Below are positions 665 to 31,136 of a stretch of DNA of 32,187 nucleotides, piece by piece. A model generated the notes under the pieces. It was not told where the DNA came from and ran no database searches. It worked only from the letters and a program-made list of their open reading frames with translations. Source of the DNA: Lachnospiraceae bacterium (GTDB lineage Bacteria; Bacillota; Clostridia; Lachnospirales; Lachnospiraceae); contig JAEERY010000027.1 of assembly GCA_016286035.1 (NCBI GenBank), positions 1 through 32,187 of the forward strand. Direction: 5' to 3'. The position numbers and the translations under genes were made by a program. The stretch's first letter is position 1. Every line of letters begins with the position of its first letter.

Positions 665-721
665 AAAAAAATAGCACCTTAAAGGGGATGCGATCGCATT
701 CCCTTCAAGACGCCTTTGTCC
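665..721 (-). promoter_or_regulatory. gdhA leader: ANTAR-like hexaloop hairpin overlapping a terminator
   Basis: Read on the minus strand, GGAC-AAAGGC-GTCT (721 to 708) is a 4-bp stem with a six-base loop that has A at position 1 and G at position 4. Its 3' arm and part of its loop also form the base of a long hairpin (714 to 673) whose outer arms pair as GGCGTCTTG with TAAGGTGCT, using G-U pairs, above an AAGGG/CCCTT stem. The sequence then runs A-TTTTTTT (671-665). The two folds exclude each other, as in transcription attenuation. The predicted transcript start (about 722) is at the first base of the hairpin. Five similar elements occur in this window. Confidence 0.8.
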
Positions 722-728
722 AAACGGT

Positions 729-757
729 ATTATACATTACACATTTATCATGTGCAA
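729..757 (-). promoter_or_regulatory. Promoter of gdhA
   Basis: The -35 box TTGCAC (757-752) and -10 box TATAAT (734-729) are separated by exactly 17 bp. It begins 29 nt after the dapL stop codon, with no conventional terminator in between. Confidence 0.85.
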
Positions 758-786
758 GTACTTTTTTATTTTTTTCAAAGCCTTTT

Positions 787-2001
787 TTAGATCTTTGTTA
801 TTCTCATGACGGCTTCTTTTGTCGCATCCTTGTCACCGAATGCTGTCAGTCTGAAATATCCTTCACCGTGAGGTCCGAAACCGACTCCGGGAGTACCAAC
901 GACTGCTGCCTTATCAAGCAGTGTATCAAAGAATTCCCAGCTGCTCATTTCATTCGGTGTCTTAAGCCAGATATAAGGCGAGTTTGTTCCTCCGTAAACT
1001 TCATATCCGGCATCCTTAAGACCGTTGAATATATATGATGCGTTTGCCATGTAGTAGGCTATCTGTTCTTTTATCTGTTTCTTTCCTGCCTCGGAGTAGA
1101 CTGCCTCACCTGCTCTCTGTACTATGTAGGGTGCACCGTTATATTTGGTACCGTGTCTTCTTGCCCAGAGGGAATTGAGTTTTGTTCCTCCAACAACAAG
1201 GTCCTTGGGCACAACGGCAAAGCCTAATCTGAGTCCCGTGAATCCGGCATTCTTAGAAAATGATCTGAGCTCTATGGCACAGGTCCTTGCCCCTTCACAT
1301 TCATATATGCTGTGAGGTATGTTATCCTCAGAGATGTATGCTTCATATGCTGCATCATATATGATCACGGAGCCTGTTCTGTTTGCATGGTCTACCCACT
1401 CCTGAAGCCTGTCTTTACTTATAACTTCACCGGTAGGGTTGTTTGGGAAACAAAGATATATTATATCGGCTTGTCTGTCAGGTATCTCAGGACAAAAACC
1501 GTTCTCAGCCGTACATGGCATATATACCACGTCGCTCCACTGTCCGTTCAGTTCATCAAAACTTCCGGTTCTGCCAGCCATTACATTTGAATCAACGTAT
1601 ACGGGATATACGGGATCACATACAGCTATCACGTTGTCTTTTGAGAATATCTCCTGAATATTTCCCGAGTCTGATTTCGCTCCGTCCGAAACAAATATCT
1701 CATCGGGATATATCTCACATCCGCGAGCCTTGTAATCGTTCTCAACTATGGTATTTCTCAAAAATTCATATCCGAGATCGGGAGCATAACCTCTGAAAGT
1801 CTCCTTTACACCCATCTCATCAACAGATCTGTGAAGTGTCTCTATGATAGCAGGTGCAAGCGGCAGTGTCACATCTCCTATTCCCAGTCTTATGATCTTC
1901 TTTTCGGGATTCTCGCTTTCAAACTTTTTAACTTTCTTTGCTATATCCGAAAACAGATAACTGCCTCTTAATTTCAGATAATCTTCATTGATCTTTAACA
2001 T
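787..2001 (-). CDS. dapL: LL-diaminopimelate aminotransferase
   Basis: A PLP enzyme that transfers the amino group of glutamate to tetrahydrodipicolinate, giving LL-diaminopimelate in one step for lysine and peptidoglycan synthesis. The protein has 404 residues, normal for the family. The N-terminus (MLKINEDYLKLRGSYLFSDI) and RLGIGDVTLPL are DapL hallmarks. FPNNPTGE (about 185-192) and the PLP lysine K250 in SFSKNAGFTGLRLGF are visible. The ATG is preceded by GGAGG at good spacing. It has its own promoter (2088-2116) and hexaloop leader (2011-2070). Its use of glutamate as amino donor fits a position between gltD and gdhA and explains why it might share their regulation. A different class-I aminotransferase is possible but unlikely given the N-terminus. 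Confidence 0.95.
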   Translation of the reverse strand: MLKINEDYLKLRGSYLFSDIAKKVKKFESENPEKKIIRLGIGDVTLPLAPAIIETLHRSVDEMGVKETFRGYAPDLGYEFLRNTIVENDYKARGCEIYPDEIFVSDGAKSDSGNIQEIFSKDNVIAVCDPVYPVYVDSNVMAGRTGSFDELNGQWSDVVYMPCTAENGFCPEIPDRQADIIYLCFPNNPTGEVISKDRLQEWVDHANRTGSVIIYDAAYEAYISEDNIPHSIYECEGARTCAIELRSFSKNAGFTGLRLGFAVVPKDLVVGGTKLNSLWARRHGTKYNGAPYIVQRAGEAVYSEAGKKQIKEQIAYYMANASYIFNGLKDAGYEVYGGTNSPYIWLKTPNEMSSWEFFDTLLDKAAVVGTPGVGFGPHGEGYFRLTAFGDKDATKEAVMRITKI

Positions 2002-2010
2002 ATTTCCTCC

Positions 2011-2070
2011 AAAAAAATATAGCGCCCCAAAAGAGATGCATGCACATCTCTTTTAAGACGCCTTTGTCCC
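2011..2070 (-). promoter_or_regulatory. dapL leader: ANTAR-like hexaloop hairpin overlapping a terminator
   Basis: On the minus strand GGGAC-AAAGGC-GTCTT (2070 to 2055) forms a 5-bp stem (two G-U pairs) with a hexaloop of A1 and G4. The competing hairpin (2062 to 2021) pairs GGCGTCTT with GGGGCGCT around a long AAAAGAGATG/CATCTCTTTT stem, and is followed by TATA and seven T (2017-2011). The ribosome site GGAGG comes right after the T-run. The predicted start of transcription lies about 11-14 nt upstream of the hairpin, slightly farther than in the other copies. Confidence 0.8.
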
Positions 2071-2087
2071 ATGTGTTCACAAACAAT

Positions 2088-2116
2088 GTTATACACCAGG
2101 ACAACCCTATATGCAA
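2088..2116 (-). promoter_or_regulatory. Promoter of dapL
   Basis: TTGCAT (2116-2111) and TATAAC (2093-2088) with a 17-bp spacer. It starts 19 nt after the gltD stop, with no separate gltD terminator visible, so the leader hairpin at 2021-2062 probably also ends the gltD transcript. Confidence 0.82.
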
Positions 2117-2135
2117 GTATTTTATAGGCTTGTTA

Positions 2136-3644
2136 TCAAAGGTTTGAATATCCCATAAGGGATTCATCAACCTCTCTTGCCGCCTCGCGGCCTTCCGCTA
2201 TCGCCCACACAACAAGAGACTGTCCTCTGTGCATGTCGCCTGCAGTAAATATATTCTCACGGGATGTCTTATGCGAACCCTCCGCTGTTGACACGTTGGT
2301 ACGCGCGTTGCAGTCCACCTTAAACTGCTGCGTAACATAAGACTCGCTTCCCAGAAATCCCGCTGCAATGAGTACCAGATCAGCCTTAAGTTCTTTCTCT
2401 GTACCCTCAACGGGAACCATGTTAAATCTCTTGGTCTCCTTGTCAAACTTGCTTTCCAGTTCGACAGTTTTTACACCCTTAAGATGGCCTTTTGAATTCT
2501 TTAAGAATTCCGTAACAGTGGTCTTGAATATCCTGGGATCTTTTCCGTAACAGTATATTGCTTCCTCCTGACCGTAATCCGTCTTTATGACCTTGGGCCA
2601 TTCGGGCCACGGGTTGTTTACGGCTCTCTCGTTCGGAGCAGGAGGCATCATCTCTATCTGAGTGACATCTGCGGCACCGAGTCTTATACTTGTACCCACG
2701 CAGTCATTTCCTGTGTCACCGCCACCTATGACTATCACTCTCTTACCCTTAAGTGAACCGAAACTGAAATCATCCGCAGTAATCACACTGTTACTGTCAT
2801 AATCATTGTCCATCAGTTTTTTGCTGACTTCCTTTAAGAAATCAACAGCAAAGTATATGCCTTTGGCATCCCTTCCGGGAGCCTTTATGTCTCTGGGGTT
2901 TGATGCACCGCAGCACAGTACAACTCTGTCATATTCCTTAAGAATCTCTTCTGCGGTTATGTCTTTGCCGACATTGACAGAGCACTTAAACTCGATACCG
3001 GCCTTCTCCATAAGATCTATCCTTCTATCTATGGAGCGCTTGTCAAGCTTCATGTTTGGTATACCATATCTTAACAGTCCGCCGGGTCTGTCACTTCTTT
3101 CAAAGACCGTGACACTGTGTCCTCTTCTGTTCAAGAGCTGAGCCGTAGCAAGGCCTGAAGGACCGCTTCCTATAACAGCTACTTTCTTTCCTGTGCGAAC
3201 CTTCGGTATTTCTTCCGTAACAAGTCCGTGCTCATATGCATAATCGATAATCGCTCTCTCATTGTCCTTTGTTGCGACAGGCTCGGTATGAAGTCCACAG
3301 GTACATGCAGCCTCACATAAAGCCGGACATACTCTTGATGTGAACTCAGGAAAACTGTGAGTTTTGGAAAGTCTTATGTATGCCTGCTCCCAGTTACCCT
3401 TATGAACAAGTTCGTTGGTCTCAGGGACCAGATTGTGAAGGGGACATCCGCTGGCCATTCCCGATATCATGACACCTGCCTGACAGAAAGGTATGCCGCA
3501 GTCCATACATCTTGCACCCTGGATCATCTGATCTTCTTTCGGAAGTGCTGTATGAAACTCTTCAAAGTTTTTGATCCTTTCCTTTTCAGGTATCGTTATA
3601 CTGTCTTTTCTCTTATAATCCAAAAATCCGGTTGGCTTTCCCAT
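2136..3644 (-). CDS. gltD: Glutamate synthase (NADPH) small subunit
   Basis: Beta subunit of GOGAT: it takes electrons from NAD(P)H through FAD and Fe-S centres and passes them to GltB. It has 502 residues, the usual size. The N-terminal Fe-S region has Cys46, 49, 54 and 67 (ARCMDCGIPFC...GCPLHN) and Cys106, 110, 114 and 116 (VCPALCEAACTC). The FAD Rossmann motif VIGSGPSGLATAQ lies at about 157-169 and a second nucleotide motif VIVIGGGDTGND farther on. The ATG overlaps the gltB stop by one base (TAATG) with GGAGGTGA inside the end of gltB, so the two subunits are translationally coupled. It is the last gene of the putative long glnA operon. Confidence 0.97.
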   Translation of the reverse strand: MGKPTGFLDYKRKDSITIPEKERIKNFEEFHTALPKEDQMIQGARCMDCGIPFCQAGVMISGMASGCPLHNLVPETNELVHKGNWEQAYIRLSKTHSFPEFTSRVCPALCEAACTCGLHTEPVATKDNERAIIDYAYEHGLVTEEIPKVRTGKKVAVIGSGPSGLATAQLLNRRGHSVTVFERSDRPGGLLRYGIPNMKLDKRSIDRRIDLMEKAGIEFKCSVNVGKDITAEEILKEYDRVVLCCGASNPRDIKAPGRDAKGIYFAVDFLKEVSKKLMDNDYDSNSVITADDFSFGSLKGKRVIVIGGGDTGNDCVGTSIRLGAADVTQIEMMPPAPNERAVNNPWPEWPKVIKTDYGQEEAIYCYGKDPRIFKTTVTEFLKNSKGHLKGVKTVELESKFDKETKRFNMVPVEGTEKELKADLVLIAAGFLGSESYVTQQFKVDCNARTNVSTAEGSHKTSRENIFTAGDMHRGQSLVVWAIAEGREAAREVDESLMGYSNL

Positions 3645-6600: not shown

Positions 6601-8182
6601 TTTCTCTTACCGCATCGATCGGAGGATTGGTAACCTGCGCAAAAAGCTGCTTAAAGTAATAGAACAGCGGCTGATACTCCTTTGACAGAACTGCTATGGG
6701 AGTATCTATACCCATAGAACCTATATGCTCACTGCCGTTAAGTGCCATGTTGCATATCTGTTCCTTGTAATCCTCATATGTGTAACCGAATGCTTTCTGA
6801 AGTCTTATGAGCTCTTCGGGAGTGTATTCCTTTATCTTCTCATTCGGTATCTTTATATCCTGAAGATTGATGAGATTGGAATCAAGCCACTCACCATACG
6901 GCTCGCGGCTGGCATATCTCTCCTTTAACTCGTTATCCAGAATGACTGCCCCCTGCTTTGTATCAACAAGAAGCATCTTGCCGGGATGAAGTCTCTCTTT
7001 CTTTAAGATATGCTTTTCATCAACCTTTAATGATCCTACCTCGGATGAGATGATAACTCTGCCGTCATCCATCACATAGTATCTCGAAGGACGAAGGCCG
7101 TTCCTGTCAAGGATGGCTCCCATAACATCACCGTCCGAGAACAGAACTGATGCGGGACCGTCCCAGGGCTCCATCATGGTAGCATAGTACTGGTAGAAGT
7201 CTCTCTCCTCCTGTGAAATGGTATCATTGTGCTCCCAGGGCTCGGGTATGAGCACCATCGCTGCAAGAGCAGGATCCATACCTCCCATGATCATGAACTC
7301 AAGTGCATTGTCAAGCATTGCCGAATCTGAACCCTCAGCAGAGATGATGGGAAGCACCTTTGTAAGATCCTCTGGTGTAAAAAGACTTGTTGCTATGGTC
7401 TCTTCTCTTGCCAGCATCTTATCGACATTACCCTTGATCGTGTTAATCTCACCGTTATGTACTACAAGCCTGTTGGGATGAGCTCTCAGCCAGCTTGGAT
7501 TTGTATTTGTAGAGAATCTCGAATGGACAAGTGCTATGGCAGATTCATAATCCTTGTCCTGAAGATCTGCAAAGAATGTCCTTAACTGGCTTACCAAAAA
7601 CATGCCTTTATAAACTATCGTCCTTCCTGAAAGAGAAGGCACATATGTATTCTCGTTACTCTGCTCAAATACTCTTCTTACGATATAAAGCTTTCTGTCA
7701 AAAGCCAGGTCATCCGTAATAGCTGCAGGTCTTTTGATAAATGCCTGATATATGTAGGGACAGCTCTCTAAAGCCTTCTGGCCGAGTACCTTGTCAAATA
7801 CAGGTACCTCTCTCCAGCCTAAAAAGCTTAAACCTTCCTTTTCCACTATAACCTCAAACATCTTCATGGCCTGACTTCTTTTGAGTTCGTTCTGGGGGAA
7901 GAAGAACATTCCGACACCGTACTCTCTCTCTTCGCCTATTTCAATGCCAAGGTTTGAACATATTTTCTTAAAATATTTATGAGGGATCTGTGTGAGTATG
8001 CCTACACCGTCACCGGTCTTTCCTTCTCCGTCTTTTCCTGCACGGTGCTCCAGATTTTCAACGATCTTTAATGCATCGTCTACTATGGCATGACTCTTTT
8101 TTCCATGGATATTGATAACAGCGCCTATACCGCAGTTATCATGTTCGAATTGTGAATCATATAAAGTGTTTGATACTTGCAT
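3644..8182 (-). CDS. gltB: Glutamate synthase large subunit
   Basis: Alpha subunit of GOGAT: it hydrolyses glutamine and uses the ammonia, channelled internally, to turn 2-oxoglutarate into glutamate. It has 1512 residues, full length. The class II amidotransferase nucleophile is Cys17 (EHDNCGIGAV), so a 16-residue propeptide must be removed. The FMN/synthase domain shows GGTGAAPLSSIHNAGLPWE. The 3Fe-4S cysteines are C1115, C1121 and C1126 (GCVMMRVCNLDTCPMGVATQ). The C-terminal glycine-rich beta-helix domain (AGGQSFGAF..., GGVAVILG) is present. The start lies 19 nt after the pyrG stop with a modest GGAAG ribosome site. No promoter is seen in that gap, so it is read as part of the asnB-pyrG-gltBD run. 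Confidence 0.97.
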   Translation of the reverse strand: MQVSNTLYDSQFEHDNCGIGAVINIHGKKSHAIVDDALKIVENLEHRAGKDGEGKTGDGVGILTQIPHKYFKKICSNLGIEIGEEREYGVGMFFFPQNELKRSQAMKMFEVIVEKEGLSFLGWREVPVFDKVLGQKALESCPYIYQAFIKRPAAITDDLAFDRKLYIVRRVFEQSNENTYVPSLSGRTIVYKGMFLVSQLRTFFADLQDKDYESAIALVHSRFSTNTNPSWLRAHPNRLVVHNGEINTIKGNVDKMLAREETIATSLFTPEDLTKVLPIISAEGSDSAMLDNALEFMIMGGMDPALAAMVLIPEPWEHNDTISQEERDFYQYYATMMEPWDGPASVLFSDGDVMGAILDRNGLRPSRYYVMDDGRVIISSEVGSLKVDEKHILKKERLHPGKMLLVDTKQGAVILDNELKERYASREPYGEWLDSNLINLQDIKIPNEKIKEYTPEELIRLQKAFGYTYEDYKEQICNMALNGSEHIGSMGIDTPIAVLSKEYQPLFYYFKQLFAQVTNPPIDAVREKIVTATTIYVGKNGNLLEEKPENCEVLKIKNPILSDLDLLKISQLNKPGLKVEKVSMLFYKSTPLERAIDHLCVEVDRAYKAGATILILSDRGVDENHVAIPSLLAVAAVHNHLVRTKKCTAMSLILESGEPREVHHFATLLGYGASAVNPYLAHASVSRLIEEGILDKDYYAACKDYDTAVIQGIVKIASKMGISTIQSYRGSRIFEAVGISESVIDRYFTGTVSRIGGITIEDIAANTDRQHSKAFDPLGLTTDMTIDSVGRHKMRSQGETHRYNPKTIHMLQMATREGDYSKFKQYTQMIDGEETGYIRSLMDFAYPEKGVSIDEVESVDEIVKRFKTGAMSYGSISEEAHEALAIAMNRLHGKSNSGEGGESDERLESAGTDHDRSSAIKQVASGRFGVTSRYLVSAREIQIKMAQGAKPGEGGHLPGKKVYPWIAKTRHSTPGVSLISPPPHHDIYSIEDLAQLIYDLKNANKNARISVKLVSEAGVGTIAAGVAKAGAGVILISGYDGGTGAAPLSSIHNAGLPWELGLAETHQTLKLNGLRSRVVIETDGKLMSGRDVAIAAILGAEEFGFATAPLVTLGCVMMRVCNLDTCPMGVATQNPELRKRFIGKPEYVENFMRFIAEELREYMAKLGVKTVDELVGRTDLIKRKDSLEGVEAKIKLDRIITGEPSGNNIFDPKALYDFELSGKKDQQLMDNDRSLMDAIKSGKKAKCSIEVGNVDRAFGTLIGAEITRQHHTGLKEDTITIDCKGAGGQSFGAFIPAGLTLDLTGDSNDYFGKGLSGGKLIVKAPSDAAYDAENNIIVGNVALYGATSGEAYIAGMAGERFCVRNSGAKTVVEGVGEHGCEYMTGGVAVILGTTGKNFAAGMSGGIAYVLDEHNTLYRNLNKEMVLMEKVEHKADKEELRNLLEKHVAYTGSIKAKTVLDDFDGYLAKFKKIIPADYKRIMQYTEEFIEQGMSLEDAQIDAFYAATSKGGDR

Positions 8183-8201
8183 ATATATTTCTTCCTTTCT
8201 G

Positions 8202-9806: not shown

Positions 9807-9807
9807 A

Positions 9808-11501: not shown

Positions 11502-13256
11502 TTACTCTACATCCTGCAAAGCATCGTAATCTTCTTCTCCTGTTCTGATCTTAACAACCTTCTCAACAGGATATACAAATATCTTTCCGTCTCCGATATG
11601 GCCTGTATAAAGAGCTTTCTTTGCAGCTTCTATAACTGCCTCTACCGGGATCTTGCTTACAACTACTTCTACCTTTACCTTCGGGAGCAATGTAGCATCG
11701 ACTTCAACACCACGATATTTCTCTCCGGCACCTTTCTGTATGCCACAACCCATTACCTGAGTGACTGTCATACCGGTAACACCAAGTTCGTTCATTGCCT
11801 TTCTCAAAGTGTCGTATCTTGAGAGTCTTGAGATTATAACGACCTTGCTTATACCTGTTGCAGGCAGTGCGTTTACAACCTTGACTGCCGCATCCTTTGC
11901 AGCCTCGCTCGCTTCCTCATATACATCTGAACCAAGACTTGTGTTCTCGTTGATATCCATTGTCATGGTGTTTGAAATATCCATGATAGAGAAGCCTGCG
12001 TATGCACTTGTAAGACCATGTTCTGTTCTGTCAAGACCGATGATCTCTTCTTCTTCAGAAACTCTTAAACCGTTAAACTTCTTAATAAGTGTGTAAGTAA
12101 TGATGATAGTAACAACAGTCCATGCGATAGTAACTGCAAGACCGCCAAACTGCTTGATCAGCTGACCTATACCGCCGCCGTAGAAAAGACCTTCCTCAAT
12201 GCCTGCGAGTGCAAATCCGGGAGCTGTTTCTGTAGCGAAGAGTCCGACTGCGATCGTACCCCAGATACCGTTGAACATATGAACCGCAACAGCACCGACG
12301 GGATCGTCTACATGTACTACGTTATCTGTGAACCATACACCGAAGACTACCAGTAAACCTGCGACCAGACCGATGATGGCTGCGCCTGCACAATCAGTTA
12401 CGTCACAGGGAGCTGTGATAGCAACAAGACCTGCAAGTGAAGCATTCAGACACATTGAAACATCAGGTTTTCCGTATTTAACCCATGTAAAGATCATACA
12501 TACTACTGTTGCAACTGCAGGAGCAACTGTTGTGGTAAGGAATACCGAACCAAGTGTTTCAACATCCGTTGCTGCCGCACCGTTGAATCCGTACCAGCCA
12601 AGCCAGAGAATGAATACACCAAGTGCTGCTATAACAAGGTTGTGACCGGGGAATGCATTGACTTTTGTTATCTTACCGTCTTTGTCCTTAACAAACTTAC
12701 CGATTCTGGGTCCTAACATCCAAGCACCGATCAAAGCACATATACCGCCGACCATGTGGATACAGTTTGAACCAGCGTAATCGTGGAATCCCCACTCTGC
12801 AAGGAATCCGCCGCCCCATGTCCAGTGAGCTTCTATCGGATAGATGATAGCTGAGATCACTGCTGAGTAGATACAGTAAGAAGAAAACTTTGTTCTCTCA
12901 GCCATGGATCCTGATACGATCGTTGCTGTTGTTGCACAGAACACCAGGTTGAAAACGAATCCTGAATAATCAAAATTGCTGTAGCTGCTGAATACATCAA
13001 ATGAGAACTTTCCTGCAAATCCGCCAAGCATGTTTTCACCAAGCATGAGGGATGCACCGCAGATGAACCACATCACGGTTCCTATACAAAAGTCCATCAG
13101 ATTTTTCATGATGATGTTTCCTGAGTTCTTGGCTCTTGTAAAGCCCGCCTCACACATCGCGAATCCGGCCTGCATCCAGAATACCAATGCGGCACCTATC
13201 AAAAACCATACGCCATACACTTCACTGTGGATAGCTTCAAAAATTTCACTCGTCAT
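11502..13256 (-). CDS. amt: Ammonium transporter fused to a C-terminal PII signal protein
   Basis: The start is the ATG at 13256 (MTSEIFEAIHS). A GTG nine bases upstream overlaps the GAGGAG ribosome site and is unlikely. The 584-residue protein has an Amt channel (about 1-420) with several membrane segments, the twin histidines at about H167 (GSNCIHMVGG) and H326 (VAVHMFNG), and the WTWGGGFLAEWGFHDYAG stretch. A linker of about 45 residues joins it to a full PII domain (about 470-582), recognised by VTGMTVTQVMGCGIQKG, the T-loop EKYRGVEVDATLLPK, GHIGDGKIFV and KIRTGEEDYDAL. In E. coli GlnB the uridylylated Tyr51 lies in YRGAEY; here that position is Val (YRGVEV), so control is probably by nucleotide and 2-oxoglutarate binding alone. 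It follows glnA after 70 nt that contain a hexaloop element. Confidence 0.95.
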   Translation of the reverse strand: MTSEIFEAIHSEVYGVWFLIGAALVFWMQAGFAMCEAGFTRAKNSGNIIMKNLMDFCIGTVMWFICGASLMLGENMLGGFAGKFSFDVFSSYSNFDYSGFVFNLVFCATTATIVSGSMAERTKFSSYCIYSAVISAIIYPIEAHWTWGGGFLAEWGFHDYAGSNCIHMVGGICALIGAWMLGPRIGKFVKDKDGKITKVNAFPGHNLVIAALGVFILWLGWYGFNGAAATDVETLGSVFLTTTVAPAVATVVCMIFTWVKYGKPDVSMCLNASLAGLVAITAPCDVTDCAGAAIIGLVAGLLVVFGVWFTDNVVHVDDPVGAVAVHMFNGIWGTIAVGLFATETAPGFALAGIEEGLFYGGGIGQLIKQFGGLAVTIAWTVVTIIITYTLIKKFNGLRVSEEEEIIGLDRTEHGLTSAYAGFSIMDISNTMTMDINENTSLGSDVYEEASEAAKDAAVKVVNALPATGISKVVIISRLSRYDTLRKAMNELGVTGMTVTQVMGCGIQKGAGEKYRGVEVDATLLPKVKVEVVVSKIPVEAVIEAAKKALYTGHIGDGKIFVYPVEKVVKIRTGEEDYDALQDVE

Positions 13257-13278
13257 AATAATCACTCCTCATATAAGT

Positions 13279-13313
13279 AAAGGCACGTTCCCTGCGGAAC
13301 GCGCCTTTGCGTT
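13279..13313 (-). promoter_or_regulatory. amt leader: intercistronic ANTAR-like hexaloop hairpin
   Basis: On the minus strand AACGC-AAAGGC-GCGTT (13313 to 13298) is a perfect 5-bp stem with the conserved hexaloop. The overlapping competitor is a 13-bp hairpin (13308 to 13279): AAAGGCGCGTTCC pairs with GGAACGTGCCTTT over the loop GCAG. The following bases (TTTACTTATAT) make a poor T-run, so termination here is probably weaker than at the other copies. No promoter lies between the glnA stop and the element, so this copy would act on transcription coming through glnA. Confidence 0.78.
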
Positions 13314-15514: not shown

Positions 15515-15557
15515 AAAAAGGTGCTTCGACCTCTCTTGGTCAAAGCACCTTTGCTTT
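15515..15557 (-). promoter_or_regulatory. glnA leader: ANTAR-like hexaloop hairpin overlapping a terminator
   Basis: On the minus strand AAAGC-AAAGGT-GCTTT (15557 to 15542) is a perfect 5-bp stem; the loop is AAAGGT instead of AAAGGC but keeps A1 and G4. The competing terminator is a 15-bp hairpin (15552 to 15517): AAAGGTGCTTTGACC pairs with GGTCGAAGCACCTTT over the loop AAGAGA, and runs into TTTTTCTTT. The loop change C to T is matched by A in the terminator's 3' arm, so that fold keeps its pairing. The predicted transcript start (about 15562) is only a few bases before the hairpin. Confidence 0.82.
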
Positions 15558-15568
15558 TCATAGTGTGT

Positions 15569-15597
15569 ACTATACTCTCATAATTTTTTGTTGTCAA
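15569..15597 (-). promoter_or_regulatory. Promoter of the glnA operon
   Basis: TTGACA (15597-15592) and TATAGT (15574-15569) with a 17-bp spacer. It starts 19 nt after the carB stop. The intervening sequence is only A/T runs, so no separate carB terminator is evident. Confidence 0.87.
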
Positions 15598-21317: not shown

Positions 21318-21328
21318 AAAGAATCCTC

Positions 21329-21370
21329 AAAAAAAGACACTTCGAGTTATACTCGAAGCGCCTTTGCTTC
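21329..21370 (-). promoter_or_regulatory. purF leader: ANTAR-like hexaloop hairpin overlapping a terminator
   Basis: The clearest copy. On the minus strand GAAGC-AAAGGC-GCTTC (21370 to 21355) is a perfect 5-bp stem with hexaloop A1/G4. The same GCTTC arm and part of the loop form the terminator GGCGCTTCGAG / CTCGAAGTGTC (21362 to 21336, 11 bp with two G-U pairs), followed directly by seven T (21335-21329). The purF ribosome site follows at once. The predicted transcript start is about 6 nt before the hairpin. Confidence 0.85.
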
Positions 21371-21382
21371 ACCATTTGGTAG

Positions 21383-21409
21383 TTTATACTTTTTATGACA
21401 AAATGTCAA
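21383..21409 (-). promoter_or_regulatory. Promoter of purF-carA-carB
   Basis: A perfect TTGACA (21409-21404) begins 9 nt after the stop codon of the upstream histidine kinase. The -10 is TATAAA (21388-21383, 15-bp spacer) or the overlapping TAAACT (17-bp spacer). The leader terminator at 21336-21362 is the only terminator candidate for the upstream signalling operon. Confidence 0.8.
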
Positions 21410-21418
21410 TCGGCATAT

Positions 21419-24097
21419 TTAGAATTTTTCGGTAAACAATAGTCCAAAGGTCCCCGCTCCACAGTTAACCGCTATGGCAGGTGATGCCTTCTGGAAATAT
21501 ACATTTTCAAAATGCATTCTTTCCTCTACCATGCTCTTTATGGTCTCAAGTTCTTTGGTGGTAAGGCCTACATATGTAACGAACAGTATACTCGTGTCTA
21601 TGTTATTGTGTGCAAGCGCAGAATCTATATATTTTTTCCATACACGCTGGGTCGCACCGAAATATACGCTTCCCACTCCCATCTTACCTTTTTTCAAAAC
21701 AAGGACCGGCCTCATAAAGAATGCCTTTGTAAGATCCGCCGTCTTTCTGCTTACCTGTCTGGCTCTTGCGAGGAAATCAAGATTGTCAACAATAAAGCTT
21801 GTATGAACGTGTTTCTTCATACGTTCAAGACGGGCCACTATCTCAACTGCACTCTTTCCTTCTGCAGCCATACGACAGGCCTCGAGTACCATGAGTCCCT
21901 GACCGCTTGAAAGATGTCCCGAATCGATGACGGAAACATTTTCAAATGCTGCCGCCGCATCTATAGCAGGTTTGTATCCGCTGTTACCTACTTTCTTTGA
22001 AACAACTATATATATGATATCGTTTGCATAAGAGAGAAGTTCTGCAAAGAACGCCTCATGCTGATCGACAGACGGGGCACTTGTACTGACGTTATGTGTC
22101 TCATCGCTCATATAAGCTAAAAGTCCTTTTGTGTCGATCTCCTGACCGTCTCTAAACTCACCCTCAGCTGTATGGACGATATGCGGCATAACAGCAATAC
22201 CGTATTTTTCTATCATCTCTGCAGGAAGATCCGCAACACTCTCTGTTGCTATTGCCACATGACGTTTCTTATGATGCGACTGCATCCATGACATCGTCTC
22301 CTGAGCTATCGTATCATCGTCATCCGTAGAATATACGATATCCGAAGGAAGCATCTTGAACAACTGCCTCTCAAGCGCATCGCCGCTGACAGGCTTGACC
22401 AGGTAACCATCAAAACCTTCTTTTTCGTAAAGGGCTTTATATTTGGGTTCCGCATTAGCAGTCAGGATGACCATCTTAGACTCTCTGCATCGTCCACCCG
22501 TCTGCTTCTTGATCTGTTTTGCACACTCTATACCATCCATCTCAGGCATAAGGTGATCCATAAAGATCACATGATAATGCATATCAAGGGTTTTCTTTAA
22601 AGCCTCATAACCACTCGAAGCTGTATCGATGGTAACTCCTGTACTCCTTAACAGTTTGGATACGACCAAAAGATTTGACTCACTGTCATCTACAACAAGG
22701 ACCTTTGCATCAGGAGCTTCAAATCTCTTCTTGTATCTCTCGATAGTCTTTGCCTTGTGTCTTGCCTCAAGATTGAATTCACCAATCTGTACATCGTCAA
22801 CGATGACCTGCGGTATCTCTACCACAAATGTGCTGCCTTTGGTATACACACTGTTAACGGTGATCTTACCGTTCATCATATCAACTATCTGTTTAACGAT
22901 AGCAAGTCCCAGTCCCGTACCTTCTATATGTCTGTTAGCTTCTTCATCAACTCTCTTAAATGCAGAGAACAGATATGGCATATCCTCTTTCTTGATACCC
23001 ATTCCGGTATCAGAGACAGAATAGATCACATTTACGGTATTGTCATTTCTCTCACCGCACTGGATGGACAGTGTAACAGAACCTTCCTTTGTATACTTAA
23101 TGGCATTTCCTACCATATTTATAAGGATCTGTTTGATCCTGACATCATCGCCCATCAGGCCACCGGGGATATCCGGAGCAATATTCACATGAAAATCGAG
23201 TTTCTTCTCTTTGGCTCTTATCCAGAGCATGCCGACAACTTCTGATATCATGTCACCGGGGTGATAAGCCACCTCTGTCAGCTGCATCTGACCGGATTCG
23301 AACTTGGACATATCAAGTATGTCATTTATAAGATGGAGCAGGAGCTTGCTGGCTGCCTGTATGTTCTCAGCATCTTCCGCAACCTCATCGGATATCTCCT
23401 CTCTTAAGATCATCTCATTTAATCCTATGATGGTATTGATAGGTGTTCTTATCTCGTGCGACATGTTTGAGAAGAATCTGTTCTGTGATTTGTACAGCGC
23501 ATCGATCTCAGCTTTCTGAGTCTCGATCTTCTCAAGCGCCTCTTTTTGCTTGTTTATCTCATAACTGACCATCGTAACGATCATAGTAGATACTAAAACA
23601 AGCGTGATATATGAACTGAAATAATCAAGCTTGGTAAATCCTATTTCAGCCAATTCGTCAATATCATAGTAGATCCAGTGCATCAGAGCCGCCATTAACG
23701 CTTCTATTGTCAGGAATACATATTTCTTCTTTCCCTCAACGATAATAGCAATATAAAGCACTCCGACCAAAAACCATGTGATATCACCATATGAAAGCCT
23801 GCCTCTCACACTGACATCCTCAGGTATTATCATCACAATGATCAAAAGAGAGATGATAGGAGCGATCTTTTGGACGCAATCCTTCTTTACGGCTACCAAA
23901 GTCAGTGTCAGGCATAAAAAGAACATGACTATCATGATGACATTATCTACAAAAACGCCCTCTGCATCCGGTTCTATCAGGGTTGCTATGAAGTAATATC
24001 CGAAAAGGACCGGCAAAGTCATAGCCGAAAGAGCAACAAACAAAACATCCTGTTGTTTTACACCTCCAAGAAGGGGTGATTTTATATTTTTCATCAT
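21419..24097 (-). CDS. Membrane hybrid histidine kinase with receiver and C-terminal DegV domain
   Basis: An 892-residue protein. About six membrane segments (roughly 18-178) are followed by a short coiled coil and the HisKA box with His214 (FFSNMSHEIRTPIN). The HATPase domain has N-box INMVGNAIKYTKEG, SDTGMGI and IEGTGLGLAIV. The receiver (about 464-583) has phosphoacceptor Asp514 (FMDHLMPEMDG) and LVKPV. A complete DegV/EDD fatty-acid-binding domain (about 612-892) follows: ATESVADLP, TSAPSVDQ, DSGHLSSGQG and the C-terminal NCGAGTFGLLF. DegV proteins (FakB) bind fatty acids and present them to a kinase; here the domain could act as a lipid sensor or effector, which is inference. The ATG overlaps the preceding kinase stop by 4 nt (ATGA). 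It is the last gene of the operon. Confidence 0.93.
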   Translation of the reverse strand: MMKNIKSPLLGGVKQQDVLFVALSAMTLPVLFGYYFIATLIEPDAEGVFVDNVIMIVMFFLCLTLTLVAVKKDCVQKIAPIISLLIIVMIIPEDVSVRGRLSYGDITWFLVGVLYIAIIVEGKKKYVFLTIEALMAALMHWIYYDIDELAEIGFTKLDYFSSYITLVLVSTMIVTMVSYEINKQKEALEKIETQKAEIDALYKSQNRFFSNMSHEIRTPINTIIGLNEMILREEISDEVAEDAENIQAASKLLLHLINDILDMSKFESGQMQLTEVAYHPGDMISEVVGMLWIRAKEKKLDFHVNIAPDIPGGLMGDDVRIKQILINMVGNAIKYTKEGSVTLSIQCGERNDNTVNVIYSVSDTGMGIKKEDMPYLFSAFKRVDEEANRHIEGTGLGLAIVKQIVDMMNGKITVNSVYTKGSTFVVEIPQVIVDDVQIGEFNLEARHKAKTIERYKKRFEAPDAKVLVVDDSESNLLVVSKLLRSTGVTIDTASSGYEALKKTLDMHYHVIFMDHLMPEMDGIECAKQIKKQTGGRCRESKMVILTANAEPKYKALYEKEGFDGYLVKPVSGDALERQLFKMLPSDIVYSTDDDDTIAQETMSWMQSHHKKRHVAIATESVADLPAEMIEKYGIAVMPHIVHTAEGEFRDGQEIDTKGLLAYMSDETHNVSTSAPSVDQHEAFFAELLSYANDIIYIVVSKKVGNSGYKPAIDAAAAFENVSVIDSGHLSSGQGLMVLEACRMAAEGKSAVEIVARLERMKKHVHTSFIVDNLDFLARARQVSRKTADLTKAFFMRPVLVLKKGKMGVGSVYFGATQRVWKKYIDSALAHNNIDTSILFVTYVGLTTKELETIKSMVEERMHFENVYFQKASPAIAVNCGAGTFGLLFTEKF

Positions 24098-26685: not shown

Positions 26686-26686
26686 A

Positions 26687-29050
26687 TCACATCTCCTTCA
26701 TATTGTAATTTGTGTCTTCATCTATCATGTCTAAAACGATGTCGGCAAATACCGGATCGAATTGTTTACCTTTACAGGTTTCTATCTGCTCCCTTATTGC
26801 TTCCTGGGGCAGTATGTCACGGTAACTCCTTCTGCTGGACATCGCATCATACGCATCTGCTAGTGCAATGATCCTTGCCTCCTCCGGAATATTCTCGCCT
26901 ATCAGACCTTCCGGATAGCCTCCGCCGCCATATCTTTCATGGTGATATTTTGCTCCTACGGCAAGTTTGGGCATCTCAGTGATATTCTCAAGGATCTTTG
27001 CTCCCACAACTGGATGCGTCTTTATTATCTCAAACTCATCTTCAGTGAGTTTTCCTGGCTTGTTGATTACTTCATCGGGTATTCCTATCTTACCCACATC
27101 ATGTAGGAGTCCCATCATATATATATCATTCGCCTGATTCTCGTTATACCCCGCTCTCTCGGCGATCATTCGTGAGTAGTGGGCAACTCTTGTTGAATGA
27201 CCGTTTGTATATGTATCCTTGGCGTCTATAGCCTCAGCAAGCGATTCAACGACATGTATAAACAGGTTCTCGTTTTCCTTTGTCTTTTTAGCCACCTCAT
27301 GGCTTAAATCCTTCTGAAGTGCTATCAGTTCAACCATATGGCTGACTCTCATGGCAAGAACCTCAGGCACGAATGGTTTCTTTATAAAGTCGACTGCACC
27401 AAGAGCGAGTCCTCTGCTCTCTGATTCCTCACTCTCATCCGCAGTAAGGAATATTACGGGAATATCTGCAAGATCACCCTCCAGCATATGTAACTTTTCA
27501 AGTGTCTCAAATCCGTCCATGACAGGCATCTTTATATCCAGCAATACCAGATCGGGTCTTTCATCGGTTATATAATCCAGCAGTGCCTGACCTGATTTCA
27601 GTGCTGTTACACGCATGCCGTTCTTACTCAGAACATGACCTGCGATCTTAAGGTTTGAAACATCGTCATCAACGATGATGACCCATGGAATATCGTTTTT
27701 CTTCTTTAAGCTTTCCTTCCCGACATGTTCTGCTTCAACCGCTATGGAAAGAGTATTCTCATGCTGAGCATGCCAGTTACTCACGATATTTCCTATAACG
27801 TTTTCAATATAATCCTCAAGGATATCGGTCAGAAATACAAAGTACTGATTCTGTCTGTACCTCATAAGGAAGTCCGATTTCCTGAGTTCATTCATAACAT
27901 AATCACCGAAAAGATCAGCGTTCTTTACGAATTCCTCATCACTGATTCCCTCTACAGGTGACAGGGTAAATAAAACCTTGCATGCACTCTTGTTGTTTCT
28001 GATAATGTATCTTGTCACATACTGATATACATATGCGAATGATTCCTTATCAAGTTTGTATGCGGCATCAGCAATATTTCTCTCCTCCATCAGCTTGCTG
28101 ATGGTACTGATATCCATTTCTTTTTCAGCACCGATATCATCAAGGAAAACGTCAGTGGAATGAATGACATAACCATGCTTACCACCGTTTTTTGCACTGT
28201 ACAATGCTTTATCCGCATCTATGAACAAAGTCTCATAGTCTCTTCCAAATTCGGGAACGAATACTGCTCCTATTGATACACCAAGTGGTATATCCATCTC
28301 TTCGCCCATGAGTTTCTTTGCATCTGAGAATATGCCCTCATTCAGTCTCTTACATATATCTGATACGATTGCTTCCTGCGTTACGCCGTTTCCGAATGCT
28401 ATGAACTCATCTCCTCCGATACGTCCCATAACGCTTCCTTCCGGCATATTTTCGCTTATGATACGGGCTATGCTCTTAAGGACCTTATCACCCATATCAT
28501 GACCGTAAATATCATTGACCAGTTTGAAAGAATCAAGGTCAAGCACCATAAGACATCCTGTCAGACGCTTACATGCATCAGGCATCTTTTTACCGACAGC
28601 AGCTTTATTAAGAAAACCTGTCAGCTTATCTATGGTCGCCTCTTCTATGAGGTTTTGCATCGTCTCATTTTTGGAAACAATGTTGTTTATCCTTCTGATA
28701 AGTACATCAGGATCAAAAGGCTTTCTTAAAAAGTCTGATACTCCTACCTCAAATCCCCTGCTCTCTGTTGCAGTATCCTCATCTGCCGTTAAGAACATAA
28801 CTGGGATCTGCTCCTGACCAAGTTCCTGCTCCTGGGCACGGAGTTTCTTCAGCGTCTCAAAACCATCCATTACAGGCATCTTTATATCAAGAAGAATAAG
28901 ATCGGGGCGGTTCTCCTTTGCATAATCAAGTAATGCCTGTCCCGACTTCAAAGCTGTCACTCTTTTATTGTTCTTGCTCAGTATGCGACCTGCCATCTGC
29001 AGATTCGCTATATCATCATCAACTACTATTATCCAATCAACTGTTGCCAT
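26687..29050 (-). CDS. Dual-receiver c-di-GMP signalling protein (REC-GGDEF-degenerate GGDEF-REC-HD-GYP)
   Basis: I use the ATG at 29050 (MATVDWIIVVDDD), which has AAGGAGAA at ideal spacing; a GTG six codons upstream lies too near that site. The 787 residues contain REC1 (about 5-125, Asp55 in LLDIKMP), GGDEF (about 135-300, intact GGDEF at 212-216 but no RxxD inhibitory site), a degenerate GGDEF-like region (about 335-430), REC2 (about 455-575, Asp505) and HD-GYP (about 590-787, HD at 650-651, HHERYGGGGYP with GYP at 711-713). The protein should both make and degrade cyclic di-GMP, or switch between the two by phosphorylation. It is cytosolic, with no membrane segment. It starts the three-gene operon; the next kinase begins one base after its stop. 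Confidence 0.93.
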   Translation of the reverse strand: MATVDWIIVVDDDIANLQMAGRILSKNNKRVTALKSGQALLDYAKENRPDLILLDIKMPVMDGFETLKKLRAQEQELGQEQIPVMFLTADEDTATESRGFEVGVSDFLRKPFDPDVLIRRINNIVSKNETMQNLIEEATIDKLTGFLNKAAVGKKMPDACKRLTGCLMVLDLDSFKLVNDIYGHDMGDKVLKSIARIISENMPEGSVMGRIGGDEFIAFGNGVTQEAIVSDICKRLNEGIFSDAKKLMGEEMDIPLGVSIGAVFVPEFGRDYETLFIDADKALYSAKNGGKHGYVIHSTDVFLDDIGAEKEMDISTISKLMEERNIADAAYKLDKESFAYVYQYVTRYIIRNNKSACKVLFTLSPVEGISDEEFVKNADLFGDYVMNELRKSDFLMRYRQNQYFVFLTDILEDYIENVIGNIVSNWHAQHENTLSIAVEAEHVGKESLKKKNDIPWVIIVDDDVSNLKIAGHVLSKNGMRVTALKSGQALLDYITDERPDLVLLDIKMPVMDGFETLEKLHMLEGDLADIPVIFLTADESEESESRGLALGAVDFIKKPFVPEVLAMRVSHMVELIALQKDLSHEVAKKTKENENLFIHVVESLAEAIDAKDTYTNGHSTRVAHYSRMIAERAGYNENQANDIYMMGLLHDVGKIGIPDEVINKPGKLTEDEFEIIKTHPVVGAKILENITEMPKLAVGAKYHHERYGGGGYPEGLIGENIPEEARIIALADAYDAMSSRRSYRDILPQEAIREQIETCKGKQFDPVFADIVLDMIDEDTNYNMKEM

Positions 29051-29125
29051 TAAAATTTCTCCTTGCACATGAGGGTTTTACCACCTGCAAAATCCCCATA
29101 TTTTACACTACTTCATACATAAAAA

Positions 29126-29154
29126 ATTGTATTATCGAAGGGCTTTAATGTCAA
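29126..29154 (-). promoter_or_regulatory. Promoter of the three-gene signalling operon
   Basis: TTGACA (29154-29149) and TACAAT (29131-29126) with a 17-bp spacer, about 75 nt before the start codon at 29050. Confidence 0.82.
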
Positions 29155-29218
29155 TTGTTTTACATGCTTTACGTGTCTTATCAACCATACCATAAATTCA
29201 TGACTTATAACGAAAAAA

Positions 29219-29250
29219 TGCACGAAATGTCGAAATTCGTGCACGAAATG
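29219..29250. repeat. Direct repeat and dyad, possible operator
   Basis: TGCACGAAATG occurs at 29219-29229 and again at 29240-29250, a 21-bp period equal to two helical turns. Within it TGCACGAA (29219-29226) and TTCGTGCA (29236-29243) form a 25-bp dyad, with the smaller palindrome CGAAATTCG inside. It lies about 65-96 bp upstream of the -35 box of the signalling operon, a usual place for an activator site. No binding protein can be named from the sequence. Confidence 0.6.
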
Positions 29251-29403
29251 CAAGTAAATATTCTTAAGTAGACTTTTAGTATTGTTATGTAAACCGTTTT
29301 AGCGATAGAATTTCTGATTAAATATACCTGCTCCTGTTCACATTTTTCCTCTCTGGTTTCTCAAAACCACTTTGATTATCAATTCAAAATCCTGCCATTA
29401 AAA

Positions 29404-29429
29404 AGACGCCTATATAAATATAAGCGCCT
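29404..29429 (-). terminator. Terminator of the kinase-phosphatase gene
   Basis: On the minus strand an 11-bp hairpin (AGGCGCTTATA pairs with TATAGGCGTCT over TTTA, with two G-U pairs) is followed by five T ending at 29400. It lies about 60 nt after the stop codon at 29490. Its base resembles the hexaloop-element terminators (GGCGC...GCGTC), but the AAAGGC hexaloop is absent. Confidence 0.8.
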
Positions 29430-29489
29430 CCTAATATCATATTAACTATATGCACATGAATTAAAAGTAAATAAAGACAGTGATTTCTT

Positions 29490-31055
29490 CTAGAATTTTA
29501 AGATTATCGCTGTGCAGTTATCCATTGCAGGATGTCTGTGGGCACATTTATAGAATTCTTTTATTGCCTTGTCTCCATCTTTCTTCATATACTTTTTCTT
29601 TTCAGCATCGGTAGTGACACCGCTTACTCCGTCGGAACACATAAGAATTATATCTCCCTTTTTTATCGTCCCTGTCCTTATGTATGCCATCTGACTTCCG
29701 GCAGTTTCCTGCTTTCCCAGATAACATGTAAGGGTATGAAAGTCCTGTGTTGTCACATTCAGTCCTGCATTAAGTTTGTCCTTGGCAAGGATATGTTCTT
29801 CACTCATTTTTTCCAGATGATTATCGCTTAATCTGAATATCGGACTGTCTCCTATATTTGCGATACAATATGTATCGTTTCTCCACATAAATATCGATAT
29901 GGTCGATGCGGTCATCCCGATCTTCTTACCCAGTATGATGATCTTTTCATTCAGCTGATCCAAAAACTCTTCTATAAGATTTTCGTTCAATCCTTCATCG
30001 TTACGATAGTTTTCGATGAAGTGAGACACCGCCTGTATCGCTGCCTTTGAAGCCAGCTCTCCGTGGCTTGATGATGCAACACCGTCAGCTATTGCCGCTA
30101 TGTGTATCTCTCCTTCCTGACAGTCTATATACCCTTTAATCTCGCAATCCTCGCCGGCATATTGAAAGAGTGTATCTACCATAAAGTTATCCTGATTTAC
30201 ATTTCTCATGCCTATATCGGTTCTGGCATGATAATGAACAGAATAGCTCTTTTCCATTGTTGAAGCCTGAATATCTCTTCCGTAAAATGCTTTCGCAAAA
30301 GCCTGTATAGTCTTATATCTTTTATCCTTATCCAGTGACAGTCCGTTAATCAATGCATTCTGCATCTTTGAATTCAATGACAGTCTCATAAGGATAGCAG
30401 GTACAGGATCGTAAAGCTGTCTGTCTGACGGAGATGGGATACCTTCGCCTGATAACAGATAGATTATATTAACACACAGAGAATATATATCAGTCCACGG
30501 TCCCTGTTCATCTGCAACAGCGGATTCCGGAGCATCGAGACCAAGATGAGAAAAGATTATATTGTTTCTTAAATGAGCCTGGCTTATCGATGTAGCAGTC
30601 CCGAAATCGATGAGAAAGAGTCGTTTGTCTTCGTCTATCAGAAAGTTACCCGCAGAAATATCTCTGTGTATGATACCTCTTTCATGCATCTGATCTAATG
30701 TAATAAGTGCAGACGGGAGTATCTGCTTTAAAAGATTTATACCTATCTTTCCACCGTTTTCTTCTTTATACTTTGAAAGCGATATACCTTTTATCAGCCT
30801 CATTACCAGAAAATGCTTTTTATCGATCACAAAGTAATCATATCTATGGGAAATATTAGGGACATTATCAAGTGCCTTTAGTATCTTTGCTTCATGCAAT
30901 AAGCTGCTATCCGAGCATTTGATGGCAACAAACCTGTTTAAAAGGTGGTCTATTGCCTTATATGTACTTCCAAATCCGCCTTGTCCTAAAAGCTCTGTTA
31001 TCTCGTATCTGTTCTTAAGCCTTGTACCCTTTTTTATTTCCATGCTTTCCGTCAT
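29490..31055 (-). CDS. Hanks-type Ser/Thr kinase fused to a PP2C-type phosphatase
   Basis: A 521-residue soluble protein. The kinase domain (about 15-260) has the glycine loop GQGGFGS (24-30), Lys46 (VAIKC), HRDISAGN with catalytic Asp132, DFG (150-152) and APE (175-177), so it looks active. The PP2C domain (about 270-521) has the metal-binding motifs RNVNQDNF, ADGVASSSHGE (Asp324), NIGDSPIF, CSDGVSG (Asp475) and MDNCTAI (Asp512), so it too looks active. In most Firmicutes kinase (PrkC) and phosphatase (PrpC) are separate proteins and PrkC has a membrane segment and PASTA repeats; this protein has neither. GAGG lies 7 nt before the ATG. It is alone in its transcript, behind a promoter and a hexaloop leader like those of glnA, gdhA and purF. 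Substrate unknown. Confidence 0.93.
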   Translation of the reverse strand: MTESMEIKKGTRLKNRYEITELLGQGGFGSTYKAIDHLLNRFVAIKCSDSSLLHEAKILKALDNVPNISHRYDYFVIDKKHFLVMRLIKGISLSKYKEENGGKIGINLLKQILPSALITLDQMHERGIIHRDISAGNFLIDEDKRLFLIDFGTATSISQAHLRNNIIFSHLGLDAPESAVADEQGPWTDIYSLCVNIIYLLSGEGIPSPSDRQLYDPVPAILMRLSLNSKMQNALINGLSLDKDKRYKTIQAFAKAFYGRDIQASTMEKSYSVHYHARTDIGMRNVNQDNFMVDTLFQYAGEDCEIKGYIDCQEGEIHIAAIADGVASSSHGELASKAAIQAVSHFIENYRNDEGLNENLIEEFLDQLNEKIIILGKKIGMTASTISIFMWRNDTYCIANIGDSPIFRLSDNHLEKMSEEHILAKDKLNAGLNVTTQDFHTLTCYLGKQETAGSQMAYIRTGTIKKGDIILMCSDGVSGVTTDAEKKKYMKKDGDKAIKEFYKCAHRHPAMDNCTAIILKF

Positions 31056-31090
31056 ATTGAATCCTCAATGCTGTCGTAACCTTATCAAAC

Positions 31091-31136
31091 AAAAACAAAG
31101 GCACTTATATATCACTATATAAGCGCCTTTGCCAAT
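31091..31136 (-). promoter_or_regulatory. Kinase-phosphatase leader: ANTAR-like hexaloop hairpin overlapping a terminator
   Basis: On the minus strand GGC-AAAGGC-GCT (31133 to 31122) is a short 3-bp stem, extendable past one mismatch by an AT/AT pair, with the conserved hexaloop. The competing hairpin (31131 to 31096) is long: CAAAGGCGCTTATATA pairs with TATATAAGTGCCTTTG over GTGA, followed by TTTTTGTTTG. The first hairpin is the weakest of the six copies, but the loop, the overlap and the position at the 5' end of the transcript are the same. Confidence 0.72.

Follow-up and report, generated by a model that had tools for sequence, protein, structure and literature searches.

The window analysed here, a stretch of 32,187 nucleotides (nt) of DNA from a Lachnospiraceae bacterium of the gut or rumen (contig JAEERY010000027.1 of assembly GCA_016286035.1), corresponds to contig C38 of a genome of 3.02 Mb (95 contigs). 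It contains six leaders in which a small hairpin with a six-base loop, the hexaloop, overlaps a longer terminator-like hairpin, and this leader element is the subject of our analysis. In the direction of transcription, on the minus strand, the genes of the window are a partial tuf, a protein kinase-PP2C fusion (kinase-phosphatase), three signalling genes, purF, carA, carB, glnN, which encodes a type III glutamine synthetase, an Amt-P-II fusion (amt), asnB, pyrG, gltB, gltD, dapL and gdhA. The amt product (11502-13265) has a C-terminal P-II domain fused to the ammonium transporter, and a DegV domain is joined to a histidine kinase and a receiver at 21419-24097. An Rfam scan of the window gave only sub-threshold matches and no family above the gathering threshold, and a plasmid BLAST gave no match.

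The initial annotation had reported six copies of a stem-AAAGG(C/T)-stem motif, and all six were confirmed on the minus strand, with the stems and places that it gave (loops are set in square brackets below). The gdhA leader contains the 5'-terminal hairpin GGAC[AAAGGC]GTCT (708..721), a candidate antiterminator, located 7 nt behind the -10 box of the promoter-like sequence TGCACA-16-TATAAT (756-729). Part of its loop and its 3' arm are reused in a terminator hairpin (673..714; -23.8 kcal/mol) followed by a T-rich tail (672-664). The dapL hairpin TGGGAC[AAAGGC]GTCTTA (2054..2071) overlaps a terminator at 2021..2062 (-28.1 kcal/mol), and its promoter match is weak (7/12). The 3' ends of the gdhA and dapL terminators are interrupted by A. 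The amt hairpin AACGC[AAAGGC]GCGTT (13298..13313), positioned between the glnN stop and the amt start, has a weak promoter-like match (8/12) and overlaps a long hairpin (13279..13308; -22.8 kcal/mol) without a U-tract, the mode of action of which is uncertain. Upstream of glnN, AAAGC[AAAGGT]GCTTT (15542..15557) overlaps a terminator (15517..15552; -24.7 kcal/mol) and begins 11 nt after the -10 end of the promoter TTGACA-17-TATAGT (15569..15597). The purF leader consists of the promoter TTGACA-17-TAAACT (21381..21409), the hairpin TGAAGC[AAAGGC]GCTTCG (21354..21371) and the overlapping terminator (21333..21365; -21.0 kcal/mol). In the kinase-phosphatase leader, the promoter TTGACA-17-TATTTT (31147..31175) precedes the weak hairpin GGC[AAAGGC]GCT (31122..31133), with a stem of only 3 base pairs (bp), and a terminator at 31094..31133 (-24.3 kcal/mol). 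A hairpin resembling this terminator is located directly 3' of the kinase-phosphatase gene (29396-29431), and was matched by the model R1 described below with an expectation value (E) of 4.96.

In each of the six leaders, the 5' arm of the longer hairpin contains part of the hexaloop and the 3' arm of the small stem, in agreement with the overlap described in the initial annotation, and the two folds exclude each other. The calculated folding energies are -21.0 to -28.1 kcal/mol for the long hairpins and -1.1 to -5.8 kcal/mol for the small hairpins alone. The long hairpin is far more stable than the small one; therefore, the terminator should be the default fold, and the small stem needs help to form. 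The combination of AAAGGY, a stem of at least 3 bp and an overlapping long hairpin occurs seven times in the window, in the six leaders and at 7609 inside gltB, whereas 100 dinucleotide shuffles of the window contained it 0.04 times on average and once at most.

The element is widespread upstream of glnN. Eighty glnN loci from named genomes, mostly of Lachnospiraceae, were scanned for any six-base loop on a stem of at least 4 bp with an overlapping terminator, leaving the loop letters unconstrained, and 63 matches were found in 57 loci. A occupies loop positions 1 and 2, and G positions 4 and 5, in 61 matches each, while position 3 is free (A 40, G 11, C 8, T 4). Among the 63, at least the match TCCGGC in L021 looks like chance. 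In 54 of 56 glnN leaders, the stem is preceded by a promoter matching at least 10 of 12 positions, with a gap of 6-15 nt between them (8 nt being the commonest); 3% of shuffles reach 10. With transcription typically starting about 7 nt after the -10 box, this spacing places the hairpin at the first bases of the RNA.

The small stem covaries, as expected from the compensating variation that the initial annotation had read from the six window copies. In 47 aligned hairpins (alignment A2), 20 cells are changed on both sides of a pair, compared with 5.2 after shuffling, and 85% of the cells pair, compared with at most 55% in slid versions. In 54 sequences from many genes (A3), 44 cells are changed on both sides, compared with 14.5 after shuffling; the number of pairs with such changes (five) is not above the shuffles, 370 of 500 of which reach five. 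Since the sequences in A2 and A3 were selected for having the stem, a blind test was made. The model R1 comprised only the loop and terminator and was blind to the 5' arm, which was inspected after the matches had been fetched from relatives. Among matches with E of at most 1e-5 in genomes with an ANTAR protein, 30 of 33 can form the small stem in exact register with 4 bp or more, whereas shuffled 5' hexamers gave a mean of 1.6 (maximum 7) and 5' arms swapped among the matches a mean of 19.5 (maximum 26; 2000 trials). Between E of 1e-5 and 0.01, the stem of at least 4 bp is present in 20 of 43 (swapped mean 9.4, maximum 16), and it occurs in one of 18 matches in genomes without ANTAR. Some relatives had also contributed glnN sequences to R1 (G001 shares an ANTAR place with the genome of L008, and G008 with that of L026), and those glnN matches are not independent; sequences from purF, gltB, asnB, pyrG, glnA and nifH, save the window's purF, were outside R1. 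Both of the exclusive folds covary.

The genes behind the element support the nitrogen and glutamine regulon proposed by the initial annotation. R1 match places were listed to E of about 0.008, leaving out G016:C41 and G044:C47 and dropping own-genome rows and opposite-strand duplicates, and an A1/G4 hexaloop (A at position 1, G at position 4) was called when a stem of at least 4 bp was present on either strand with the loop starting -6 to +8 of the match. Such a hexaloop is formed by 43 of the 94 matches: 42 of 76 in genomes with ANTAR, but only one of 18 in those without (Fisher p=1.1e-4). The genes following the 42 are glnN (14, two of them tandem copies before one gene), purF (8), gltB (4), amt (3), gdhA (3), asnB (2), glnA (2), pyrG (1), dapL (1) and nifH (1), and another gene or none in three cases; downstream genes were named by BLAST to the proteins of the window and of contig C45, and gdhA and nifH by Pfam. 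Thus, 39 of the 42 precede one of these ten genes, and the hexaloop matches are not scattered among gene ends as plain terminators. The dapL gene of G012 is preceded by a leader like that of the window's dapL. Outside the family, GGGC[AAAGGC]GCTC occurs as a single copy with a terminator before nifH (L186 1517-1577), and a further hairpin, by eye of 8 bp with a 7-base loop, is located just upstream of it. A sample of 147 genomes of the class with at least 90% completeness was searched with R3. Twenty-three of the 29 loci of the best R3 matches have an A1/G4 hexaloop of at least 4 bp (register shift of up to 2 allowed), and six do not. The 23 precede glnN (11), amt (3), asnA (2), and once each potA, a PPDK_N gene, a CP_ATPgrasp gene, a GATase_3 gene and an asnB-like gene; two have no reading frame behind them. 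A 3-bp copy is located upstream of a cyanase gene (L296), and in G222 the hairpin AAGGC[AAAGGC]GTCTT precedes a PPDK_N gene resembling the one on contig C11 of the window genome.

Copies with 3-bp stems before nadE, the gene of glutamine-dependent NAD synthetase, in G007 and G009 closely resemble the window's kinase-phosphatase leader. In G009 (L314 201-3774), the order is leader, nadE, kinase-phosphatase gene, and the kinase-phosphatase was therefore rejected as the primary target. The window (29490-31133) contains no nadE between leader and kinase-phosphatase, while the tuf-side sequence and the leader still align with G009; the nadE of the window genome is found on C11, where it follows the PPDK_N gene, whose leader is hexaloop-like. 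The order in the window looks like the result of a loss of nadE between the leader and the kinase-phosphatase gene.

Further copies are present elsewhere in the window genome, although their list may be incomplete, since 150 of 877-1196 first-look candidates were scored in each search. Searches R2 and R3 and a reading of C87 identified copies before a gamma-glutamyl-GABA hydrolase-like gene (puuD), a LuxR-type gene, a P-II gene and agcS. The LuxR-type gene has the tandem leader TGAAC[AAGGGA]GTTCA and AGAC[AAAGGC]GTTT, and the P-II gene, which accompanies a polyamine ABC operon, has TTGGC[AAGGGA]GCTGG. The energies of the small hairpins in the further copies are -3.2, +0.3, -1.3, -4.4 (hydrolase) and -2.8 (agcS) kcal/mol, several of them weak, and the agcS, puuD and C11 copies, with stems of 3-4 bp, are uncertain. 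The copy at C37:6579 was discarded because it was judged to be a plain terminator; the gene 44 nt in front of it, identified by eye, is of the methyl-accepting type. The R2 matches L131, L133, L135, L136 and L145 were dropped because they are inside reading frames. The hairpin TTTAAAC[AAAGGC]GTTTAAA (L128 1501-1520; G000:C78:70755-70774) is positioned directly before the start codon of an AzlC-family gene, with no terminator seen; its loop may hold the ribosome-binding AGG, and translation control is possible there.

The window genome encodes exactly one ANTAR protein, the gene of which is located between a glnA and purA. The best NCBIfam match of this glnA is TIGR00653 (type I), at 393.9 bits and thus below the cut-off of 429, and its leader contains TCTGC[AAAGGG]GCAGA; glnA leaders with a hexaloop are also present in G022 and G010. 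In 27 of the 30 best-scoring ANTAR loci, which were examined, the ANTAR gene has a glnA as its immediate 5' neighbour. The remaining loci (L083, L084, L088) are within about 2 kb of EutA and keep the phosphate-accepting aspartate of the receiver domain. This aspartate is missing in the protein of the window genome and in all 22 aligned glnA-linked homologues (of 27; five were outside the alignment): the column contains G 9, T 7, S 2, A 2, M 1 and P 1, and the two acidic-pocket columns contain F, M, I and P, A, S. The AlphaFold2 model of the window genome's protein (mean predicted local distance difference test score, pLDDT, 86.8; predicted template modelling score, pTM, 0.68) has a receiver-like domain, a long helix and a helical ANTAR domain, and the nearest solved structures include Rv1626, EutV and AmiR (rank 6). 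The EutV contact residues K149 and E160, in a numbering fitted by hand to its chain, are kept in 22 of 22 homologues. The initial annotation had expected an ANTAR response regulator; an ANTAR protein is present, but its receiver fold lacks the phosphate-accepting aspartate, which makes signalling by phosphorylation unlikely. Judged by its sequence, the protein is not a phosphorylated response regulator like EutV. AmiR also has a pseudo-receiver and is controlled through contact with AmiC (PMC3369936). By analogy, the signal may reach the pseudo-receiver by protein contact, with glutamine synthetase or P-II as candidate partners.

An ANTAR protein is present in 45 of 61 genomes of the relatives. 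The test on the genomes of 50 of the 80 glnN loci is uninformative because 48 have ANTAR; the two without (G097 = L070, G099 = L075) also lack the glnN element. In the class sample, ANTAR accompanies R3 matches in tests that, like all our co-occurrence tests, ignore phylogeny: it was found in 50/64 genomes with a match versus 31/83 without at E of at most 1e-3, 36/43 versus 45/104 at 1e-4, 30/32 versus 51/115 at 2e-5 (p=1.7e-7) and 24/26 versus 57/121 at 1e-5. One of the 81 ANTAR-containing genomes (G152) is under the family cut-off. The initial annotation had inferred an ANTAR protein in the genomes that carry the element, which agrees with the window genome and 30 of the 32 strong carriers, but not with G147 and G210, which have no ANTAR match. 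The small stem of G210 has only 2 bp, whereas G147 has the perfect hairpin TAAAGGC[AATGGC]GTCTTTA. In the first sample, inside the window's family, A1/G4 hexaloops were formed by 37/63 matches in genomes with ANTAR versus 0/4 in those without.

Based on these observations, a mechanism can be proposed in which the leaders are, probably, single 5'-terminal hexaloop attenuators worked by the glnA-linked ANTAR protein. The polymerase would start only a few bases upstream of the small stem. In the default state, pairing of the loop and 3' arm with the distal arm would form the intrinsic terminator, and transcription would stop. When nitrogen is short, the ANTAR protein, NitR-like and with a pseudo-receiver, would bind the hexaloop as it exits the polymerase; at the 5' end of the RNA, the hexaloop would be complete before the terminator arm is made. 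The bound small stem would remove the 5' arm of the terminator and enable read-through into genes of ammonium, glutamate, glutamine and glutamine use. The nitrogen state would presumably be relayed to the pseudo-receiver by glutamine synthetase or P-II.

Several observations weigh against this mechanism. The scan with unconstrained loop letters gave no match in 23 of the 80 glnN loci. L020 has no upstream sequence; in L031, L052 and L079, a similar hairpin is present but lacks a short terminator. Seven Butyrivibrio loci are among the 23, and all six tested have ANTAR; likewise, 7 of 34 ANTAR-containing genomes of the window's family have no R1 match at E of at most 0.1. The best promoter match is within 14 nt of the stem in 20 of 29 leaders of other genes and further off or absent in the rest, and the amt copy has no U-tract. 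In the glnA leader of the window genome, the hexaloop forms the tip of the long hairpin and the folds are not exclusive; therefore, binding could not exclude the long hairpin there. Outside the window's family, A1/G4 hexaloops were found in 5/13 matches in genomes with ANTAR versus 1/14 in those without (p=0.077), and the disregard of phylogeny further tempers the co-occurrence. In a clade comprising G004, G008, G011, G018, G019 and L026 (2881), the stem is kept, mostly before glnN, with the loop AAGAGC, which has A at position 4. Two ANTAR matches were found in each of G008, G011 and G018, a second weak one in G004, and one in G019, and a re-tuned pair of loop and protein is possible in this clade. 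In EutV, Y164 stacks on G4 of the loop, and K149, E160 and R142 are also RNA contacts (PMC8934654). The position of Y164 is H (13) or F (9) in the glnA-linked homologues, and that of R142 retains R in just 2 of the 22. Finally, both hexaloops are reported to be essential for EutV (PMC3369931), and PMC8934654 proposes a single hexaloop without showing antitermination by one.

Some of these observations would also be expected if the same switch were read by another hexaloop-binding protein or a small molecule, as a tiny riboswitch, and ANTAR were a bystander or served glnA only. ANTAR matches are missing from 14 of 64 carriers at E of at most 1e-3 and from 2 of 32 at 2e-5, G147 with its perfect hairpin included; R142 and Y164 are not conserved, loop position 4 is A in one clade, and there is no second hexaloop. 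Against such a reader, the element co-occurs with ANTAR, 61 of 63 matches have A1 and as many have G4, and the ANTAR gene is behind a glnA with a hexaloop leader in the window genome, G022 and G010. A hairpin of 16 nt would offer very little room for a ligand pocket, and Rfam gave no match above threshold in the window. We consider another reader unlikely.

Known ANTAR targets consist of two hexaloop hairpins joined by a linker of 2-25 nt (PMC8164766). An upstream second A1/G4 hexaloop with a stem of at least 3 bp and such a linker was found in 1 of 56 glnN leaders, 0 of 29 leaders of other genes and 0 of the 6 window copies, where the shuffle means are 1.3, 0.7 and 0.16, respectively. A similar scan, with a terminator also required, of three eut loci (L265-L267) found a double motif in one (G049) and none in two. 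The G049 motif (L265, minus strand, about 7759) reads ATTACAC[AACGGC]GTGTAAT-7 nt-GAGC[AATGAG]GCTC, is followed by a terminator and is beside an ANTAR gene with a true receiver; the scan is therefore able to see a double motif. As far as can be judged from the sequences, the element is a single-hexaloop variant and not a member of the dual-hexaloop ANTAR family. The match to the ANTAR recognition rule claimed by the initial annotation thus stands for A1 and G4, which were recovered without a loop filter, but not for the AAGAGC clade, and it does not extend to the full motif, which requires a pair of hexaloops where one was found. Two hexaloops might be needed after all if a dimer paired tandem copies or different transcripts, or if an unrecognised structure served as P1, the recruiting hexaloop of the dual motif. 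Two or three hexaloop-terminator units, 43-85 nt apart, do occur upstream of glnN in L006, L011, L014, L018 and L080, in the LuxR-type gene leader of the window genome (L151 18094-18136 and 18052-18093), in G161:C5 (49296-49510) and in G010:C5; we read them as serial attenuators. Downstream A1/G4 hexaloops are present in 5 of 57 glnN leaders, a count within the shuffles (mean 2.6, maximum 9). Most glnN leaders have one copy, upstream partners are as rare as stated, and a EutV dimer binds a single hexaloop at any one time (PMC8934654), which makes a requirement for two improbable. Plain intrinsic terminators, perhaps of upstream genes, with an A-tract, a GGC start and a small stem arising by chance, would account for 17 of the 18 R1 matches in genomes without ANTAR, which are such terminators without a hexaloop, and partly for the weak own-genome copies (C37, C11, agcS, puuD), but this very improbable explanation is already contradicted by the glnN sites between a strong promoter and the gene, the covarying alternative stem, the shuffle mean of 0.04 and the 39 of 42 hexaloop matches before nitrogen and glutamine genes.

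With somewhat less confidence than in the single-hexaloop attenuators themselves, we lean towards a global nitrogen control of Clostridia, in which single hexaloops right at the start of the transcript would be the targets of a glutamine synthetase-linked ANTAR protein whose receiver is dead. Such control would break the rule of P1 for recruitment and P2 for antitermination, as P1 would be replaced by the position of the hexaloop, first out of the polymerase. It would unite some ten operons in the window genome and more in relatives, up to nitrogenase, supply a nitrogen regulator for Lachnospiraceae, and explain the tie of purine, NAD and kinase genes to nitrogen supply in gut and rumen bacteria. 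The element is a natural candidate for a single-hexaloop antiterminator, kept across many genomes, with a ready gene list and one candidate regulator.

In the open-access literature, we found no paper on single-hexaloop leader elements; the NitR leader structures (Stutz et al. 2007) were beyond that search. The element resembles the dual-hexaloop ANTAR antiterminators, namely EutV on eut leaders, NasR on nasF and AmiR on amiE (PMC3369931, PMC8934654, PMC3369936), in its A1/G4 loop, in the ANTAR protein of the genome and in the 3' arm of the hexaloop stem being common with the terminator, with the window genome's glnA leader as the exception. It differs from them in having one hexaloop at the 5' end of the RNA, with no P1 and no linker, and the receiver domain of its ANTAR protein, unlike that of EutV, has no phosphate acceptor. 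Ramesh et al. reported dual motifs before genes of glutamate and glutamine synthesis, P-II and ammonium transporters (PMC3369931). Walshe et al. redefined the minimal ANTAR site as one hexaloop, proposed that P1 recruits the EutV dimer, which touches one hexaloop at a time, and that P2 antiterminates, and considered that single sites might exist, calling for more bioinformatic and experimental work on the extent to which single hexaloops function (PMC8934654). Two hexaloops are still used in their model of antitermination.

The ribonucleic antiterminator (RAT) is a stretch of 29-30 nt that folds into one stem-loop (PMC3369931). Like the SacY/BglG RAT, the element is one small hairpin overlapping a terminator. 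The SacY/BglG RAT has no A1/G4 hexaloop and is read by a different protein family. In Clostridium thermocellum, the ANTAR gene Clo1313_2030 is co-expressed with a cluster for glutamine synthetase and glutamate synthase (GS-GOGAT) and was suggested to encode an ammonia-responsive antiterminator (PMC4676874); the available part of that paper describes no RNA element. The ANTAR-family protein NitR of Clostridium saccharobutylicum reportedly induces GS/GOGAT genes on nitrogen limitation by antitermination (PMC6316151). The protein described here would be, like NitR, a nitrogen-linked ANTAR regulator, with linkage to glnA in 27 of 30 ANTAR loci. The nitR gene is reportedly linked to glnA as well. 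In contrast to the GS/GOGAT set of NitR, the candidate targets here also include the type III glutamine synthetase gene, purF, gdhA, dapL, amt, nadE, pyrG, asnB and, in one relative, nifH.

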